Source: Armatimonadota bacterium (lineage in GTDB: Bacteria > Sysuimicrobiota > Sysuimicrobiia > Sysuimicrobiales > Sysuimicrobiaceae). Taken from it: a stretch of 64,000 nucleotides of DNA. Under the pieces are notes generated by a model. That model was not told the origin of the DNA. It saw only the letters and a list, made by a program, of their open reading frames with translations, and did not search any database. Both the position numbers and the translations under genes were made by a program. Every line of letters begins with the position of its first letter. Position 1 is the stretch's first letter. This document shows positions 18,445-25,932 of this stretch, piece after piece. The stretch covers positions 1 to 64,000 of the forward strand of contig JANXCW010000002.1 in assembly GCA_025059775.1 (NCBI GenBank). The letters are read 5' to 3'.

Positions 18445-19566
18445 ATGCGGATCGGGGTGCCCCGGGAGCGCAAGGACCAAGAGTACCGGGTGGGAATCAC
18501 GCCCGGGGGCGTGATGCAGCTCGTGCAAGCGGGCCACGAGGTCCTCCTCGAGGCGGGGGCAGGCGAGGGGAGCGGGTTCTCGGATGAGGAGTACCGACGC
18601 CGGGGGGCCCGCATCGTCCTGGACCCTTCGGAGGTGTGGGGATGCGACCTGGTGATGAAGGTGAAGGAGCCCCTCCCTGAGGAGTACCGGTACCTGCGAG
18701 AAGGGCTCGTGCTCTTTGCCTTTCTGCACCTCGCGGCGGACGCACCCCTGACCCAGGCGCTGGTGGCCTCCCGCGCGGTGGCCATCGCCTACGAGACCGT
18801 GCAGCTCCCGGACGGGGAACTACCCCTGCTTACCCCCATGAGCGAGGTGGCGGGGAAGCTGGCGGTCCAGGAGGCCGCCTACTACCTGAAGCGCACCCAG
18901 GGCGGGAAGGGCACGCTCCTGGGAGGAGTGACCGGCGTCGCGCCGGGGACGGTGGTCATCCTGGGCGGCGGTGTGGTGGGCACGAACGCCGCCCGGGTGG
19001 CGCTCGGGATGGGTGCACAGGTCACCATCCTGGAGAAAAACTTCCGGAGGATGCTGTTTCTGGACGACGTGCTCCACGGCAGGTTCCAGGTCCTCGCCAG
19101 CAATCCCTACACCATCGAGCAGGCGGTGGCGTACGCGGACGTGCTGGTGGGCGCGGTCCTGGTCCCCGGGGCCCGCACGCCGCGGCTGGTGACGGAAGAG
19201 ATGGTTCGGGCCATGAAGCCCGGGTCCATTATCCTGGACGTCTCCATCGATCAGGGCGGATGCGTGGAAGGCATCCGGCCCACCACTCACCGCGATCCCG
19301 TGTACGTGCGGCACGGGGTGGTGCACTACGCGGTCACCAACATGCCCGCGGCCGTCCCCCGGACCTCCACCGTGGCCCTCACCAACGCCACCATCCCCTA
19401 CGCCCTGCAGATCGCCGCAAAGGGGTGGCGGCGGGCCTGCCGGGAGGATCCGGCGCTCCGGAGGGGGCTCAACGTGGTGGAGGGTGCCATCACCCACCCC
19501 GGGGTGGCCGAGGCCCATGGGCTCCCGTATACTTCTGCGGAGGAGGTTCTGGAAGGATCAGGTTAG
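18445..19566 (+). CDS. ald: Alanine dehydrogenase
   Basis: A 373-residue NAD-dependent L-alanine dehydrogenase (reversible L-Ala to pyruvate plus ammonia). Family signatures are [29 protein letters not shown], the Rossmann motif [20 protein letters not shown] and [17 protein letters not shown]. The start ATG at 18445 is 8 nt after GAGGAGG. It is a single plus-strand gene, divergent from the GT87-like gene (62 bp apart) and converging on rpoZ with a 4-bp overlap. Length and motifs are complete. Confidence 0.96.
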
Positions 19567-19784
19567 AGATCCCGGAAGATGGCCAGGGGCTCCCGGGGCC
19601 ACTCCGGCCGGACCCGGCCGGCCGCGACTTCCTCGAGGGCAATGGTGACAGGGTTCTGGGAGTCCACATCCACTAGGGGCAGCTGCCCCGCACCCAGCTG
19701 CTGGGCCCGCTTCGCGGCCAGCATCACCAGAGCGTACTTGTTGGGCACGCGTTCGAGCAGCACCTCAAGGGGTGGTCGGATCAT
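19563..19784 (-). CDS. rpoZ: RNA polymerase omega subunit
   Basis: A 73-residue protein with the omega pattern MIRPPLEVLLERVPNKYALVM, AAKRAQQL and PVTIALEEVAAGRV. It assists assembly of the beta' subunit. The ATG at 19784 matches family length; the frame is open 17 codons further upstream but that part lacks similarity. It follows the secreted-protein gene by 7 nt and has its own near-consensus promoter. Confidence 0.92.
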   Translation of the reverse strand: MIRPPLEVLLERVPNKYALVMLAAKRAQQLGAGQLPLVDVDSQNPVTIALEEVAAGRVRPEWPREPLAIFRDL

Positions 19785-19791
19785 GCCGTCC

Positions 19792-20670
19792 TCACCTCGC
19801 AGGGCCCATTGTAGCGGGTTCAGGGAATCTGTCAAAGCCGGTTCGGGAGTCCTCGCGGCCGGAGCCGTCTCCGAGAGGGCGGTACAGGCGAAGCCCCAGG
19901 AAAACCCTGTTCTCCACCACCCCCAGTTCCAGGGTGCCGCGGTCCGTGGCCAAGGCCACGGTTAGGCCCACCTCCTGCTCCCGCCAGCTTCCGCTCACAG
20001 AGATGGTCCGATCCTCCCAGGGCCAGCTCCCCTGAGCGGCGAGAGCGGGAGGATAGCGTGCCTCCAGGGTAAGAAGCCCTCTCCCCACAAACCCCGTGAT
20101 CCCCACCGTGGCCTGTCCTCCCCCTCCCACGGCGAACACGTCCCCGTAGACCACCACCTCTCCCAGGGAAGCGGTCATCGAAAGCCCAAGTCCTCCGGAG
20201 AGAACATAGGCCTTCAGCTCCCGCAAACTGAGCTCCACGAGGATCCCGCGGTCCGCCGCGTAGCCCGCCCGGATCCGGTATTCGGGGGCGTAGTAGGTGA
20301 GGGCTAGCCCCGAAAGCCCTTCCTGGTAGCCTGTGGGGAGCGGCGTCTGCCAGGTGTAGGGGAGCAGGCGCGCTTCCCCAAACCCGAGCGGGAAACGTCC
20401 CAGGAGCACGGAAAGGGGGCCCTCGTCCCACCGCAGGGAGAGGGTTTCCACCGCCACGGCTCCCCCTCCGAGCCAGGGGTGGTAGAAAGGGGAGACGGCG
20501 TACTGCAGCTCCCCCCTCCCGAGCGGGACGCTTCCTGAAAGCCGCAGGAAGATGACCTCCATCTCCCCGCTCCGGCGCAGCCCTGCTTCGAGGATCCCGC
20601 GAGACGGCGCTGCTCCCGCGGGAGGAGCGACCCCGAGCCCCACGACGAGAAGCCACACCAGAGGCCGCAA
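19792..20670 (-). CDS. Secreted beta-strand-rich protein of unknown function (possible outer-membrane barrel)
   Basis: A 292-residue protein with a cleavable-looking signal peptide (MRPLVWLLVVGLGVAPPAGA). The rest consists of alternating short amphipathic strands and turns with many Gly, Tyr and Ser, such as LSLRWDEGPLSVLLGRFPLGFG and GQATVGITGFVGRGLLTLEAR, and a near C-terminal LGLRLYRPLG strand. This is what a small outer-membrane barrel or surface beta protein looks like; I do not recognise a family. It starts at a TTG (20670), 3 nt after the ABC ATPase stop, so it is the last member of the export cassette operon. Confidence 0.6.
   Translation of the reverse strand: MRPLVWLLVVGLGVAPPAGAAPSRGILEAGLRRSGEMEVIFLRLSGSVPLGRGELQYAVSPFYHPWLGGGAVAVETLSLRWDEGPLSVLLGRFPLGFGEARLLPYTWQTPLPTGYQEGLSGLALTYYAPEYRIRAGYAADRGILVELSLRELKAYVLSGGLGLSMTASLGEVVVYGDVFAVGGGGQATVGITGFVGRGLLTLEARYPPALAAQGSWPWEDRTISVSGSWREQEVGLTVALATDRGTLELGVVENRVFLGLRLYRPLGDGSGREDSRTGFDRFPEPATMGPAR
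19808..19835 (-). promoter_or_regulatory. Promoter of rpoZ
   Basis: On the minus strand TTGACA (19830-19835), 16 nt, TACAAT (19808-19813). This is the best -35 match in the window. The start would fall near 19802, 18 nt before the rpoZ ATG, inside the last codons of the upstream gene. Confidence 0.6.
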
Positions 20671-20673
20671 CCC

Positions 20674-21354
20674 CTACCCCCTCCGCTCGTCCGCCACCAC
20701 CGTCCCGTCCTCCAACCGCACGATGCGTCCCACCTGTTCCAGCAGGCGCGGATCGTGGGTGGAGAACAGGAAGGTGATGTGCTTTCTCTCGTTGAGCCGC
20801 TTCATGTGCCGGATGAGGTCCAAGCCCGTTTTGGAGTCCAGGTTCGCGGTAGGCTCGTCCGCAAGGACGACAAGGAGTTCTGCCACCATGGCCCGAGCCA
20901 CCGCCACCCGCTGCTGCTCCCCTCCGGAGAGCTGAGCGGGCCGACGGCGGGCTTTGTCCGCAAGGCCGAAGGCCTCCAGGGCCGAAAGGGCCTGGCGCTC
21001 CCGCTCCGGCCGAGGAATGCCCCGTAGCTCCAGCAGAAGCGCGGCGTTCTCCAGAGCCGTGAGCACCGGCAGGAGATTGTAGGCCTGGAACACCGAGCCC
21101 ACGTGGAACAGGCGGAACCGGGCCCGTTCCGCCCGGCTGAGCCGGTCCACCCGCACCCCGGCCACGTACACCTCGCCCTCCGTGGGCAGGTCCAGGCCGG
21201 CCAGGAGGTGCAGGAGGGTGCTTTTTCCGGATCCGGAAGGCCCCACGATGGCGGTAAATTCCCCCCGCTCCACGGAGAGCTCCACGCCCCGCAGAGCTAC
21301 GGTCTCCACCCCGTTGCTCCGGTAGACCTTTCTGAGTCCCACCGTTCGGATCAT
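20674..21354 (-). CDS. LolD/MacB-family ABC transporter ATPase
   Basis: A 226-residue ATPase of the MacB/LolD/FtsE clade: Walker A GPSGSGKST, Q-loop GSVFQAYNLLPVLTA, signature QLSGGEQQRVAVARAM and Walker B VVLADEPTANLDSKTG. It powers the two FtsX-like permeases encoded just upstream. Such systems use mechanotransmission to release lipoproteins or push substrates across the periplasm. ATG 21354 follows the permease stop by 10 nt; the 32-codon upstream extension of the frame has no similarity. Confidence 0.9.
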   Translation of the reverse strand: MIRTVGLRKVYRSNGVETVALRGVELSVERGEFTAIVGPSGSGKSTLLHLLAGLDLPTEGEVYVAGVRVDRLSRAERARFRLFHVGSVFQAYNLLPVLTALENAALLLELRGIPRPERERQALSALEAFGLADKARRRPAQLSGGEQQRVAVARAMVAELLVVLADEPTANLDSKTGLDLIRHMKRLNERKHITFLFSTHDPRLLEQVGRIVRLEDGTVVADERRG

Positions 21355-21364
21355 GGGAGTCTCC

Positions 21365-22576
21365 TCAAGGCGCATACCGCATGGCCTCCACGGGCTCCAG
21401 CCGACCCGCCAGGTGGGCAGGCCAGAGGGCTGCGAGCACCGATACTGCAAGGGCGTACCCCACCGTCAGGAGGAAATCCCGGGCAGTAAGCCTCCCGTAA
21501 AGGACCTCCGGGAAACCGAACTCCAAGTACCGCTCTGCCAGGCCGAAGGGGAGGCGGAAGCCGTCGCGCATCTCCAGATACATCCCTATCCCCACGAGTA
21601 CCCCCACGAGCGTCCCCAGACCCACCAGGAACCCGCTCTCCAGCAGGACCACGCCCACAATCCGCCTCCTGCTCGCGCCGAGGGCCGCCAGCAGGCCGAA
21701 CTCCCGGATTCGCTCCACGAAGCTCAGGTAGAGGGCGTTCAGGAGGATGAGACCCACTAGGCCAAAGAAGATCCCCACGTAGACCGCGAGGATGGGCTCG
21801 TACAGCCGGATAAGGGCATCCATGGCAGGGTTCGCCTCCCGCCAGGTCTCCACCTGGAAACCCACTAGCCTCCTCCGGAGCACCTCCTGGAGGGCCTGGA
21901 CCTTCTCCTCCTCGTAGAGGCCGTGTGCCGGAAGCCGCACCTCCAACCGGGTGACCCGCCCGGGAGCGAGGAGGACCTGCGCGGCCGATAAGGGCACGAG
22001 AAGGGTCCTGGCCTCCTGCCCCGTCTCTGGGAGATCCAGCAGCCCCACCACCCGGAAGGCGGCGATCCCGGTCCCCGTGCCACCCGGCGCGTAGGCTACC
22101 ACTTCCCCTCCCAGATCCACCCGCAGGGCCCGGGCCAGAGCGGCGCCCAGGAGCGCTTCGTCCCCCCGTTGAGGGAGACGGCCCCGGGTGAGGTAGCTCT
22201 CCTGCCGGCGAAACCCGGGTGGCTCAAGTCCTACGAGCACGGCCGCCCGGCTCCGATCCCCCGCGATGAGGAGGGCGGGTCCTTCGAGAACTCCCTCCCC
22301 CGTACTCCCCGAAGGAAGGGACAGGGTTCCCCGGAGGGGTTCCGCCTCGAAGCTGAGGCTTTCCAGGTCCTCCTTTTCCCGGTATCCCTCCACCCGGATC
22401 ACCACATGTCCGCCTCGCTCCGTGAGGGTCCGGATGAAGCCGTCCAAGCTGGCGGCGGCGAAGGACAGGAGGAGGAGACTGAGGCAGACCACCAGGGCCA
22501 CGGTGAAGACCGTGGTGAGGGAGCGGCCCCTGGCCCTCAGCAGGTTCCGCCAGGCGAGTGCCCCCACTACGGGCAC
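21365..22576 (-). CDS. FtsX/LolC-type ABC permease A
   Basis: A 403-residue permease of the MacB/LolCE superfamily. It opens with LAWRNLLRARGRSLTTVF and the first transmembrane helix, continues with a periplasmic domain of about 210 residues, and ends with the three-helix FtsX domain (RIREFGLLAALGASRRRIVGVV is the characteristic cytoplasmic loop), closing LEPVEAMRYAP. The start GTG 22576 overlaps the LolA-like gene by 10 bp and stands after GGAGCGAGG. It presumably forms a heterodimer with permease B. Confidence 0.88.
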   Translation of the reverse strand: MPVVGALAWRNLLRARGRSLTTVFTVALVVCLSLLLLSFAAASLDGFIRTLTERGGHVVIRVEGYREKEDLESLSFEAEPLRGTLSLPSGSTGEGVLEGPALLIAGDRSRAAVLVGLEPPGFRRQESYLTRGRLPQRGDEALLGAALARALRVDLGGEVVAYAPGGTGTGIAAFRVVGLLDLPETGQEARTLLVPLSAAQVLLAPGRVTRLEVRLPAHGLYEEEKVQALQEVLRRRLVGFQVETWREANPAMDALIRLYEPILAVYVGIFFGLVGLILLNALYLSFVERIREFGLLAALGASRRRIVGVVLLESGFLVGLGTLVGVLVGIGMYLEMRDGFRLPFGLAERYLEFGFPEVLYGRLTARDFLLTVGYALAVSVLAALWPAHLAGRLEPVEAMRYAP

Positions 22577-23256
22577 CCTCGCTCCAGGGAGAGGGGATTG
22601 AAGCAGCGCTCCGGAACCGGACCCACCCGCACCTCGCTCACCTCCACCACCGTCCGATACCCGGACCTGAGGAGGTCCCGGACCTCCACCCGGCCGGGCA
22701 GGACCGCCGCCCCGTGTCGGGTGTACCCGGAGATCCGAACCTCCCGGATGGCCGCCCCCCTCTGGTCGTAGTACAGGAGGCGTTCCGGAAGCTCCTCCCG
22801 GAGGTAGACCTCCACGCGGCCGTAGGGTGTGGGAGCTCCGGGCTTGGGGACCAACACCAAGGCCTCCCTTTCCTCGGCCACGGAGAACTGCTCTTCCAGA
22901 TCCCGGCCCATGAGGTCCTGGTAGGTGAGATCGCTTCCCAGAAAGCGCTCCGCGCGCCCCGTGGGAGGCAGGCGGAGGGTGCGCCCGAGACGTGGGTCGT
23001 AGAGGTACAACTCGCCTTCCAGGGACAGGAAGGCCTGCCCCGCCTCCCGGACCGGTTCCAGCACCCGCAGCCGCGCGCGCCTGCCGTCCGTGTACACCTT
23101 CAGGCGGTAGCTCCGTTCCGCATTCGGGCGCACCACCCGGATGGTGTAGGTGGCCTCGTGGCTGGGACCCCGCAGCCGGTCCAGGATAGCCTTCAACCGG
23201 GCCTCCGGCCCCGGGGCCAGGGCAAGGGAAACCACGAGCGCCCAAGCCACGTGCAC
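22567..23256 (-). CDS. Outer-membrane lipoprotein-sorting (LolA-like) periplasmic protein
   Basis: A 229-residue exported protein (VHVAWALVVSLALAPGPEA signal). The mature part follows the LolA/LolB-like half-barrel pattern used by MacB-linked proteins: LKAILDRLRGPSHEATYTI, a run of strands with a conserved LYLYDPRLGRTLRLP segment, FLGSDLTYQDLMGRD, LVLVPKPGAPTPYGRVEVY and GAAIREVRISGYTR. It likely carries a lipid or lipoprotein substrate between the permease and the outer membrane. Three in-frame GTGs (23250, 23256, 23262) follow GGAGGT; 23256 has the best spacing. It sits between the two permease genes. Confidence 0.8.
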   Translation of the reverse strand: MHVAWALVVSLALAPGPEARLKAILDRLRGPSHEATYTIRVVRPNAERSYRLKVYTDGRRARLRVLEPVREAGQAFLSLEGELYLYDPRLGRTLRLPPTGRAERFLGSDLTYQDLMGRDLEEQFSVAEEREALVLVPKPGAPTPYGRVEVYLREELPERLLYYDQRGAAIREVRISGYTRHGAAVLPGRVEVRDLLRSGYRTVVEVSEVRVGPVPERCFNPLSLERGCP

Positions 23257-23258
23257 GC

Positions 23259-24458
23259 TCACACCTCCTTCAGGTACCTCGGCACGTTCAGGTAGACCAC
23301 GAGCCTGCTGGGAAAGAGAAAAGCCAGGAGGGTAGAGAGGACCACGGTGGTGGCCGCATACAGGGCGTAGTGCGGTCGCACAGCGGTATAGAGGGCCTCC
23401 GTGAGACCGGATTCCGGCAGGAGCTCCACGGAGAGCCGCATGAGCGGACCGAAGACGTTGTGGGCGGAGGTATACAGAAGGAGGCCGTAGCCGAGGAGCA
23501 GTCCTCCCACCAGCCCCACCAGGCTCGCGAGGAACGCTTCGAGGGCCACCATCGCCGCAAGGCGCCCGGGGCTCATTCCCAAGCTTTCCATCACACTGAG
23601 CTCCCTGAGCCGCTCCCGCACGCTCACGTATGTGGTGCTGGTCACCGCCACCGCCGCGAGCAGCATGAACAACCCCACGATCGGGATGTAGAACAGGCGG
23701 CTCGCCTCGTAGTCGTACCGGATGGGACCCATGAGCTCCCACACCCCCTTCGCCCGGAGCTCCGGAGAGAGCACCCGATTCAGCTCCTCCGCGGCCCGCA
23801 TCTCCCACCCCCGCGGGACCCGCACCGCCAGCTCCGTGGCCCGAATCCCCGTCAACCCTTGCGCATCCTCCAGAGGGATGTACAGTCCGGAGTGGTCCAC
23901 CGTGGAAACCCCGGCTCGGAGGATCCCCACCACCTGCAACCCCAAGGCCTGCGGGCCCCTGCGGCCGCTGGTCTCCACCACAAGCCTCTCCCCCACCCGC
24001 ACGTCCAGCCGGCGAGCCAACCGCTCCCCGAGCACCACTTCCCCCCGCCGGGCCATCCAACGGCCTTGGACCACCTTCCCGGCAAGACGGCTCAGCCCCC
24101 TCTCGCCCTCCGAGTGGACTCCCACCACCTCCAGGCCCTCCGTGCGGTACGGAGATCGAACAAGGGCCGCAAACCGGAGCCTCGGGGTCTGTGCCTGGAC
24201 CCTCGGATGGGAGAGGACGGGAAGGCGTGTGAGGCCGTGGGCCGGATCTGGGTCTTCCCACCACGCGGTTCTTGCCACCACCACGGGGGCCACCAGGTAG
24301 GCCCCATACGCTTCCACGAGGCTCTCCCCGTACCCGTCCAGAAAACCGTAGAGGAACAGCACGGCCACGGTCACGTAGGCGACCACCAGGCCCAGCAGCG
24401 CCGTCCTCTGACGGTGCCGGAAGAGGTTGCGCCACGCGAGCCGGAGGATGGGAATCAC
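23259..24458 (-). CDS. FtsX/LolE-type ABC permease B
   Basis: A 399-residue MacB/LolCE-family permease: RLAWRNLFRHRQRTALLGL N-terminus, first helix, a ~200-residue periplasmic domain and a terminal three-helix FtsX domain with the loop RERLRELSVMESLGMSPGRL. The start GTG 24458 overlaps the nth stop by 4 bp and follows GGGGAGG. It is the first gene of the export cassette and is 2 nt from the LolA-like gene. Confidence 0.88.
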   Translation of the reverse strand: MIPILRLAWRNLFRHRQRTALLGLVVAYVTVAVLFLYGFLDGYGESLVEAYGAYLVAPVVVARTAWWEDPDPAHGLTRLPVLSHPRVQAQTPRLRFAALVRSPYRTEGLEVVGVHSEGERGLSRLAGKVVQGRWMARRGEVVLGERLARRLDVRVGERLVVETSGRRGPQALGLQVVGILRAGVSTVDHSGLYIPLEDAQGLTGIRATELAVRVPRGWEMRAAEELNRVLSPELRAKGVWELMGPIRYDYEASRLFYIPIVGLFMLLAAVAVTSTTYVSVRERLRELSVMESLGMSPGRLAAMVALEAFLASLVGLVGGLLLGYGLLLYTSAHNVFGPLMRLSVELLPESGLTEALYTAVRPHYALYAATTVVLSTLLAFLFPSRLVVYLNVPRYLKEV

Positions 24459-25153
24459 AAGCGCCTCCCCGCCGTCTGCCCCGTGAAGAACGCACAGGAC
24501 TCCTGGACCGGGCATCCCCCACACCGGGGCACGCGGGCCCGACACAGCTCCCGGCCGTGGCGCACCAGCAGGAGGTGGAAGGGAGCGTACCGCTCGGGCG
24601 GAACCAGGGCTTCCATCCACCCATGGGCAGCTTCCCGGGACATCCCCGCAGGCAGCAGCCCGATCCGGCGGGCCACCCGATACACGTGGGTGTCCACGGG
24701 AAAGGCGGGAATCCCAAGGCCGAACAGCAGCACGATGGCCGCGGTCTTCGGCCCGATCCCCGTCTGCCCGAGCAGCCACGCCTTCGCCTCCTCCACAGGC
24801 ATGTCCCCCACAAACGCCAAGGAAGGTTCGCCCCGGACCACTGGGAGGATCCGGAGGAGGGCCTGGATGCGGCGGGCCCGCACGGCACTGAGGCCCGCGG
24901 GTCGGATGAGGGTCTCCACCGTGTGCGGGGGAGCATCCCGCACCCCGCTCCAGGTGTGGAAGCGAGCCCGCAGCCGTCGGAAGGCCTGGTCGCTGTTCCG
25001 GTCGGAGGTGTTCTGGGAAAGAAGGGCACGCACAAGCACCCCCACGGGATCTCCAGGCACCGGGATCCGGGGTGGACCATAGAAGGCCTCCAGCCGGCGG
25101 TCGATGGCCCGGGCCCTGCGCCGGAGCGACGGGGAGGGCGCTCGCTCCGTCAC
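24455..25153 (-). CDS. nth: Endonuclease III-like DNA glycosylase/AP lyase
   Basis: A 232-residue helix-hairpin-helix glycosylase for oxidised pyrimidines. The HhH with catalytic lysine is LLGQTGIGPKTAAIVL, the catalytic aspartate is in FPVDTHVYRVARRIGL, and the C-terminal [4Fe-4S] loop is C-x6-C-x2-C-x5-C (CRARVPRCGGCPVQESC). All key residues are present. GTG 25153 overlaps the DUF72 stop. It is in the same transcript as polX, mpg and mutS2, so this is a repair-rich operon. Confidence 0.92.
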   Translation of the reverse strand: MTERAPSPSLRRRARAIDRRLEAFYGPPRIPVPGDPVGVLVRALLSQNTSDRNSDQAFRRLRARFHTWSGVRDAPPHTVETLIRPAGLSAVRARRIQALLRILPVVRGEPSLAFVGDMPVEEAKAWLLGQTGIGPKTAAIVLLFGLGIPAFPVDTHVYRVARRIGLLPAGMSREAAHGWMEALVPPERYAPFHLLLVRHGRELCRARVPRCGGCPVQESCAFFTGQTAGRRL

Positions 25154-25932
25154 GGGGCCGACACCTCCGCGCGGACCCATTGGGAGAGAGAGAGGGCGTT
25201 GCGCACCGCATATCCCGCCACATCGTTGTTGTAGAAGGCATACACGTCCCGTCCCTTGCGCAGCTCCTCCTGGATCCAGGCGGCATCCTGACGGATGAAG
25301 GCTTCCGGGTAGCAGCTGCGGTACAGGGGTCCGGGCCCGTGCCGGCGGAGGTAGCTCCAGCAGGCCACCTGAGGCACTCGCACCACGGGCCGGTCCAGGG
25401 GCTGCGGGGTCATGTCCGGGAGCAGCACCTGGAAGGGCCAGTCCGCTCCCACCACCGCGGCGTCCTGAGCCTCCAGCCGTCGGTAGACCGCCTCCGTGAA
25501 CCAGGAGGGATCCCGGAACTCGAAGGCATGCCGCACCTGGCCGGGAAGCGCCTGCAGGAAGGTCTCCAGAAGCTCCGGGTCCGCCCGGAAGCGGGGCGGG
25601 AGCTGCCACAGGACGCAGCTCAGGCGCCACCGCAGGGGCTGCGCGGCAGAGAAGAACCGGTGCAGGGCTTCTCCGGCCTCCCGCAGGCGGCGGAGATGGG
25701 TGATGAAGCGGCTGCCCTTGAGCACGAACCGGAAATGGTCCGGGACCTCTTGGGCCCAGGCCTCAAAGGTCCTGCGGGGCGGCAGGCGGTAGAAGGTGAC
25801 GTTCAGCTCCACGGCGTTGAAGTGCTCGGCATAGTGCCGTAGCCACCGGCGCGGCGGGAGATCCTCGGGGTACAGGACGCCCACCCAGTGCCGGTAGGTA
25901 AATCCGGAGGTCCCGATCCACGCGGTGGCCAC
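25150..25932 (-). CDS. DUF72 (YecE-like) family protein
   Basis: A 260-residue TIM-barrel-like protein of the YecE/DUF72 family. Typical pieces are WIGTSGFTYRHWVGVLYP, FNAVELNVTFYRLP, FRFVLKGSRFITHLRRL, HAFEFRDPSWF and DVYAFYNNDVAGYAVRNA. The biochemical role is unknown. It lies 3 nt downstream of tyrS and overlaps nth by 4 bp. The GTG at 25932 is the first reasonable start. Confidence 0.9.
   Translation of the reverse strand: MATAWIGTSGFTYRHWVGVLYPEDLPPRRWLRHYAEHFNAVELNVTFYRLPPRRTFEAWAQEVPDHFRFVLKGSRFITHLRRLREAGEALHRFFSAAQPLRWRLSCVLWQLPPRFRADPELLETFLQALPGQVRHAFEFRDPSWFTEAVYRRLEAQDAAVVGADWPFQVLLPDMTPQPLDRPVVRVPQVACWSYLRRHGPGPLYRSCYPEAFIRQDAAWIQEELRKGRDVYAFYNNDVAGYAVRNALSLSQWVRAEVSAP

Follow-up and report, generated by a model that had tools for sequence, protein, structure and literature searches.

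An accessory cassette of two FtsX-type permeases, a LolA3-type carrier, an ABC ATPase and a predicted beta-barrel, shared between Thermus and a lineage of Sysuimicrobiota

The stretch of DNA analyzed here, referred to throughout as the window, comprises 64,000 nucleotides (nt; positions 1 to 64,000, forward strand) of contig JANXCW010000002.1, assembly GCA_025059775.1, from an Armatimonadota bacterium that GTDB places in the Sysuimicrobiota. The latter (CSP1-3) are described in PMC11604079 as a single order, common in hot springs, that was earlier placed with the Armatimonadota. Between nth and rpoZ the minus strand of the window carries a block of five genes running from 24458 to 19792, in the order nth, permease A, LolA-like carrier, permease B, ATP-binding cassette (ABC) ATPase, barrel gene, rpoZ. 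The features are as follows.

23259..24458, minus strand: permease A (permA), 399 amino acids, FtsX and MacB_PCD domains; GTG start overlapping the nth stop codon
22567..23256, minus strand: LolA-like carrier, 229 amino acids, PF17131, LolA3/DUF1329 type; GTG start, or a GTG 6 nt upstream in frame
21365..22567, minus strand: permease B (permB), 400 amino acids, FtsX and MacB_PCD domains
20674..21354, minus strand: LolD-like ABC ATPase, 226 amino acids
19792..20670, minus strand: barrel protein (gene 5), 292 amino acids, TTG start, signal peptide, predicted porin-like beta-barrel
19808..19835, minus strand: promoter-like site TTGACA-16-TACAAT, the presumed promoter of rpoZ, within the 3' portion of the barrel gene; kept in the empty site of a same-genus genome (G001)

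With the starts chosen here, the five genes overlap by at most 4 nt or are separated by gaps of at most 10 nt, and this spacing suggests that they are read as a single transcript. An earlier reading of the letters without database searches (the sequence-only reading) had described these five open reading frames (ORFs) as one block, and the description stands: the ORFs are real and in the place and order given, the Pfam domains agree, and the genes are tightly packed on the same strand. Only one promoter-like site was detected in 19560-25200; it is directed towards rpoZ from within the 3' end of gene 5. The G+C content of the block (67.5-70.0%) falls close to that of five neighboring genes (67.2-71.3%) and gives no sign that the block is foreign.

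Both permeases matched FtsX (PF02687) and MacB_PCD (PF12704) above the Pfam cut-off, and a hydropathy scan gave each of them four transmembrane segments with a long insert after the first. The ATPase matched ABC_tran at 116 bits (Pfam). The block thus combines FtsX-type permeases of four transmembrane segments and a periplasmic domain with an ABC ATPase in the same operon, which are the characters of a type VII ABC transporter (MacB/LolCDE/FtsX superfamily). The LolA-like protein matched PF17131 at 100.3 bits against a cut-off of 30, and the Pfam scan gave no match to canonical LolA (PF03548). Its structural model (predicted local distance difference test, pLDDT, 85.5) is nearest to LolA3 of Porphyromonas gingivalis (9tp6, PMC13103446), the closest solved fold, with Z 25.0 at 21% identity, followed by 4z48 (DUF1329; Z 24.2), 3bk5 (24.0) and 3buu (22.1), while canonical LolA structures reached Z 13.4 or less. 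As judged from the model, the carrier belongs to the LolA3/DUF1329 type and not to canonical LolA. According to the available part of PMC13103446, P. gingivalis LolA3 binds LolB weakly and is without the LolA-type arginine; deletion of lolA3 in Flavobacterium johnsoniae left gliding and amylase secretion unaffected (available part of PMC11885536), and the function of solved PF17131/DUF1329 proteins is described as mostly unknown in the part of PMC6394551 at hand. Two cysteines near the end of the window's carrier (residues 218 and 228), which could possibly form a disulphide, are kept in a three-sequence set and in 6/8 of another, the other two sequences of which are cut before the second cysteine.

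The product of gene 5 had no match in Pfam or NCBIfam, in line with the earlier remark that the terminal protein has no recognized family. It has a hydrophobic N-terminus (residues 3-21, hydropathy scan), and its AlphaFold2 model, made from 7 sequences, places 18 strands in a barrel (pLDDT 74.3, predicted template modeling score 0.69). The top Foldseek match was the bacterial porin 1prn (E 3e-9), and VIA-align gave Z 15.1, with many ties among OmpF-type, Occ and maltoporin barrels, and 13.9 for AlgE. The product is accordingly predicted to be a porin-like outer-membrane beta-barrel with a signal peptide, as had been guessed for the 292-residue protein. A chance barrel-like sequence is unlikely, given the position kept in relatives and the predicted fold.

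Scanning named genomes for the LolA gene gave a 12-locus set, consisting of three loci of Thermus, one of RBG_19FT_COMBO_69_19 (G028, of the window's order), one of isolate RSA8, four of Trueperaceae/Truepera and three distant ones; the distant loci (3/12) are without this cassette. In 11/11 cassette loci (nine nearer loci, the window and G016, all found through the LolA gene) the core keeps the order permA-lolA-permB-ATPase, indicating that the block did not arise by chance. A barrel-type gene follows the core in 9 of the 11; in G016 the end of the contig truncates it, and in G028 part of it is masked. As a tblastn query, the window's gene 5 itself matched only the three Thermus loci and one from Truepera (L033); the remaining copies were assigned from their position and sequence character. 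All five genes occur in the same order in Thermus caliditerrae, T. igniterrae and T. arciformis (L025-L027), where the cassette differs from the window's in lying at another chromosomal site and, in L025, in having a MarR-type gene upstream. Identities between the window and these three copies are 65-71% for permease A, 68-71% for the LolA-like protein, about 62% for permease B and 74-77% for the ATPase, and 38-40% over 169-237 residues for the barrel proteins. Recurring in the heat-loving genus Thermus, in Trueperaceae and in two genomes of the window's order, the block is a genuine module. We found no description of it in the literature, Thermus copies included, in a search that left out most subscription papers, and a plasmid search with the LolA protein returned two weak partial matches.

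Several of these loci have features of their own. The sole interruption seen in the core is in Truepera (L033 7520-7894), where a 124-residue ORF separates the LolA gene from permease A. In G016 (L005 5842-6423) and G028 (L006 8-589) a divergent gene, nitroreductase-like by its sequence, lies about 50 nt from permease A. Upstream genes in isolate RSA8 (L029 1-2978) resemble, as ORFs, spore-germination receptor genes, and these neighbors hint that the cassette may be present in a spore-forming lineage with outer-membrane-type barrels. A second PF17131 system, with the order ATPase, FtsX-type permeases, LolA-like protein and a long outer-membrane-type protein, was seen in L063 (G047) and L064 (G050), so the arrangement of ABC transporter, LolA-fold protein and barrel seems wider than this cassette.

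Comparison with a same-genus genome, G001, gave an empty site, in which nth is directly followed by rpoZ. Local alignment of the window with G001 shows common sequence through nth almost to its end, and the match resumes at the -35 box of the presumed rpoZ promoter. In the window the final stretch of gene 5 (19792-19840) contains this promoter (TTGACA, 16 nt, TACAAT), from which it follows that the last ~16 codons of gene 5 are read from the old nth-rpoZ spacer. The C-terminal tail derived from spacer DNA differs from the C-terminus of the Thermus homologues, and residues 269-292 of the gene 5 model have pLDDT under 50. Contamination was rejected on two grounds: the contig extends over 245,660 bases, and on either side of the block (rpoZ at one end, nth and the genes past it at the other) the window agrees with the same-genus genome. 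Taken alone, the two genomes fit a gain in the window's species and a loss in G001 equally.

Phylogenetic analysis of the cassette proteins bears on its passage between lineages. In a tree of the four core proteins, built from 13 rows and 1275 columns, the window grouped with the three Thermus copies (100/99) and not with the two copies from its own order. Forcing it together with these two cost 393 log units, and common descent with them was rejected (approximately unbiased test, p = 7e-8). In a second tree of three proteins with 20 rows, 12 of them Thermus, the window was sister to all Thermus rows (100/99). These placements demonstrate horizontal transfer of the cassette between the lineages of Thermus and of the window. 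A Thermus-like donor would be the simpler reading, because other copies are found in Trueperaceae, which are also Deinococcota.

The distribution of the cassette is patchy on both sides of this exchange. The LolA-like protein is present in 3/41 near-relative genomes, the window's own included; an alignment search of 43 phylum genomes gave six matches, namely three of full length, one 52-residue fragment (G014) and two weak ones. A decayed locus (L062 5717-6372) in G014, which belongs to the window's order but to a different family, retains frame-broken pieces of lolA, permB and the ATPase gene. Weak LolA-type matches in G000 (contig C24), G001 and G004 were rejected as members of this cassette; they are partial, lie near a sigma-factor gene and resemble RseB/MucB by sequence. 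Conservation of the five-gene block across the phylum, which the sequence-only reading had put forward as a check, was therefore not borne out: the full-length LolA-like gene occurs in 3/43 genomes and is absent from the nearest congener at the syntenic site. Among 27 Thermus genomes, 15 have the LolA gene (in G067 it is spread over three frames) and 15 have the barrel gene; both are found in 12, LolA only in 3, the barrel only in 3 and neither in 9 (Fisher p = 0.007, uncorrected for kinship). In each of the 12 genomes with both, the two genes lie ~2 kb apart on one strand. Five of the six incomplete cases were inspected (G073 was left out): the ATPase and barrel genes are missing from the G054 locus, lolA is broken and the barrel absent in G067, part of the ATPase gene and the barrel remain in G065, and the barrel alone remains in G070; the fifth, G053, is weighed below. 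The cassette is thus lost or decayed in many Thermus species, and the expectation of an intact block in relatives held in part, the core order being kept where the core is present but the block being split or decayed in several Thermus species. Because its LolA gene occurs at full length in 3/43 phylum genomes and is present in 15/27 Thermus genomes, with decay in G014 and an empty site in G001, the cassette is accessory and not a core function.

These results bear directly on whether the block is a route for lipoproteins. Omp85 was found in 39/43 phylum genomes, so that an outer membrane is expected and gene content marks the phylum as diderm, and Lgt was found in 5/5 genomes tested, including the congener without the cassette. 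The route from inner to outer membrane proposed in the sequence-only reading makes sense in such a host, but it is not the lipoprotein route of the phylum: the full-length LolA-like gene is confined to 3/43 genomes and missing from the Lgt-bearing congener, the carrier is of LolA3/DUF1329 type, and canonical LolA (PF03548) was found in 0/43 phylum genomes, as well as in 0/8 genomes with related cassettes. A housekeeping Lol pathway of the phylum is ruled out by this distribution. A narrower version, in which a dedicated Lol-like pathway supplies the outer membrane with a single lipoprotein or a small number of them and the barrel, in place of LolB, acts as acceptor or surface-export pore, is a serious competitor that we nevertheless consider unlikely. 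It shares with Escherichia coli LolCDE-LolA-LolB the two FtsX-type permeases, the LolD-like ATPase and the LolA fold; the best NCBIfam models are LolC/E for the permeases and LolD for the ATPase; lipoproteins are made, as Lgt is present; and a similar proposal exists for BBJ23-29 of Borrelia (PMC13078400). However, all three scores are far under the Lol cut-offs (78 and 64 bits against 362.45 for the permeases, 216.9 against 307.75 for the ATPase), the carrier is of another LolA subtype, a barrel gene is part of the block, no lipoprotein gene was recognized there, and an accessory, patchy presence misfits general sorting.

The MacB_PCD domains, together with regulators beside related cassettes, could instead point to a MacAB-like drug efflux pump in which the LolA-fold protein takes the place of the MacA adaptor. 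MarR-type genes lie just upstream in L025 and L033 (Pfam) and in L091, L092 and L096 (tblastn), and a TetR-type gene lies downstream of the cassette in L029 (Pfam); no regulator adjoins the window's block. In the Pfam scan, the five proteins included no HlyD-type or MacA-type adaptor and no TolC-type product, and likewise no resistance-nodulation-division (RND) pump and no DUF1302 protein. By contrast, two other MacB_PCD permeases of the window's genome (contigs C1 and C13) adjoin adaptors that are HlyD-like by sequence, as in MacAB, and such a pump is an improbable account of this block.

We slightly favor an accessory, horizontally acquired system for the ABC-driven export of a hydrophobic or amphiphilic substrate. 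Starting from what was computed, namely the parts and their order, the predicted carrier and barrel folds, the patchy distribution and the transfer between lineages, we infer complex formation, the direction of transport and the class of substrate as follows. Joined to an ATPase dimer, permeases A and B would make up a type VII ABC complex and draw the substrate out of the inner membrane's outer leaflet. The LolA-fold protein would take it into its groove and cross the periplasm, and hand it to the porin-like barrel, from which it would pass into the outer membrane or through it. As the substrate, bulk lipoproteins are less likely than a lipid-like small molecule or a special lipid. The joint occurrence of LolA and barrel genes in Thermus and the MarR- and TetR-type genes beside related cassettes also speak for this system. 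YbbAP-TesA is presented as an extractor of hydrophobic compounds from the inner membrane (PMC12646458, available part). The reverse direction, in which a hydrophobic lipid or nutrient enters through the barrel and is delivered to the inner membrane by the carrier, would suit the OprD/Occ uptake porins among the barrel's nearest folds, yet it is very improbable: the exporter AlgE is nearly as good a match (Z 13.9), and the type VII ABC systems treated in that part of PMC12646458 (LolCDE, MacAB, FtsEX, YbbAP-TesA) extract, export or act mechanically.

Several observations weigh against the export system that we favor. MarR-type genes also control functions besides efflux. In L031 and L032 a gene that is cupin-like by sequence stands in place of the barrel gene next to the core, and in Thermus G053 the barrel is missing and the rest of the cassette is present. 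The window's block is without a biosynthetic gene and without a regulator, and the barrel model of gene 5 was built on just 7 sequences.

By its mode of working, as proposed, the closest worked example would be the Ame cassette of Castellaniella defragrans for apolar monoterpenes, consisting, in the available part of PMC6394551, of the RND pump AmeD, the DUF1329 LolA-superfamily protein AmeB, AmeC and the DUF1302 outer-membrane protein AmeA. Both combine an inner-membrane pump, a soluble LolA-superfamily protein and a dedicated outer-membrane protein in one accessory cassette. Ame differs in that its pump is RND and not ABC, in its extra periplasmic AmeC, and in its DUF1302 protein, a family to which gene 5 had no Pfam match. 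By type of ABC transporter, the BBJ23-29 system proposed in Borrelia comes nearest; it differs, as set out in the part of PMC13078400 at hand, in its single permease proposed as a homodimer, its Omp85-type barrel, its two tetratricopeptide repeat proteins and its seven genes. It is conceivable, although we hold this only tentatively, that the cassette is a mobile, ATP-driven counterpart of the RND-DUF1329-DUF1302 systems, in which a soluble LolA3-type shuttle connects a type VII ABC extractor with a porin-like barrel of its own. Controlled by MarR/TetR-type sensors, it would export a single, particular lipid-like substrate in Thermus and in bacteria of hot springs, and would be traded between phyla.

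Proteins of the PF17131/DUF1329 families are annotated as lipoprotein-sorting, and in Thermus this cassette pairs one of them with an ABC extractor and a barrel. Thermus is a genus open to genetics, and the partners and substrate of the cassette are therefore directly testable there. Our results also counsel caution in reading genomes: a LolCDE-like operon in a diderm phylum is not by default its lipoprotein pathway, and here it is an acquired extra.

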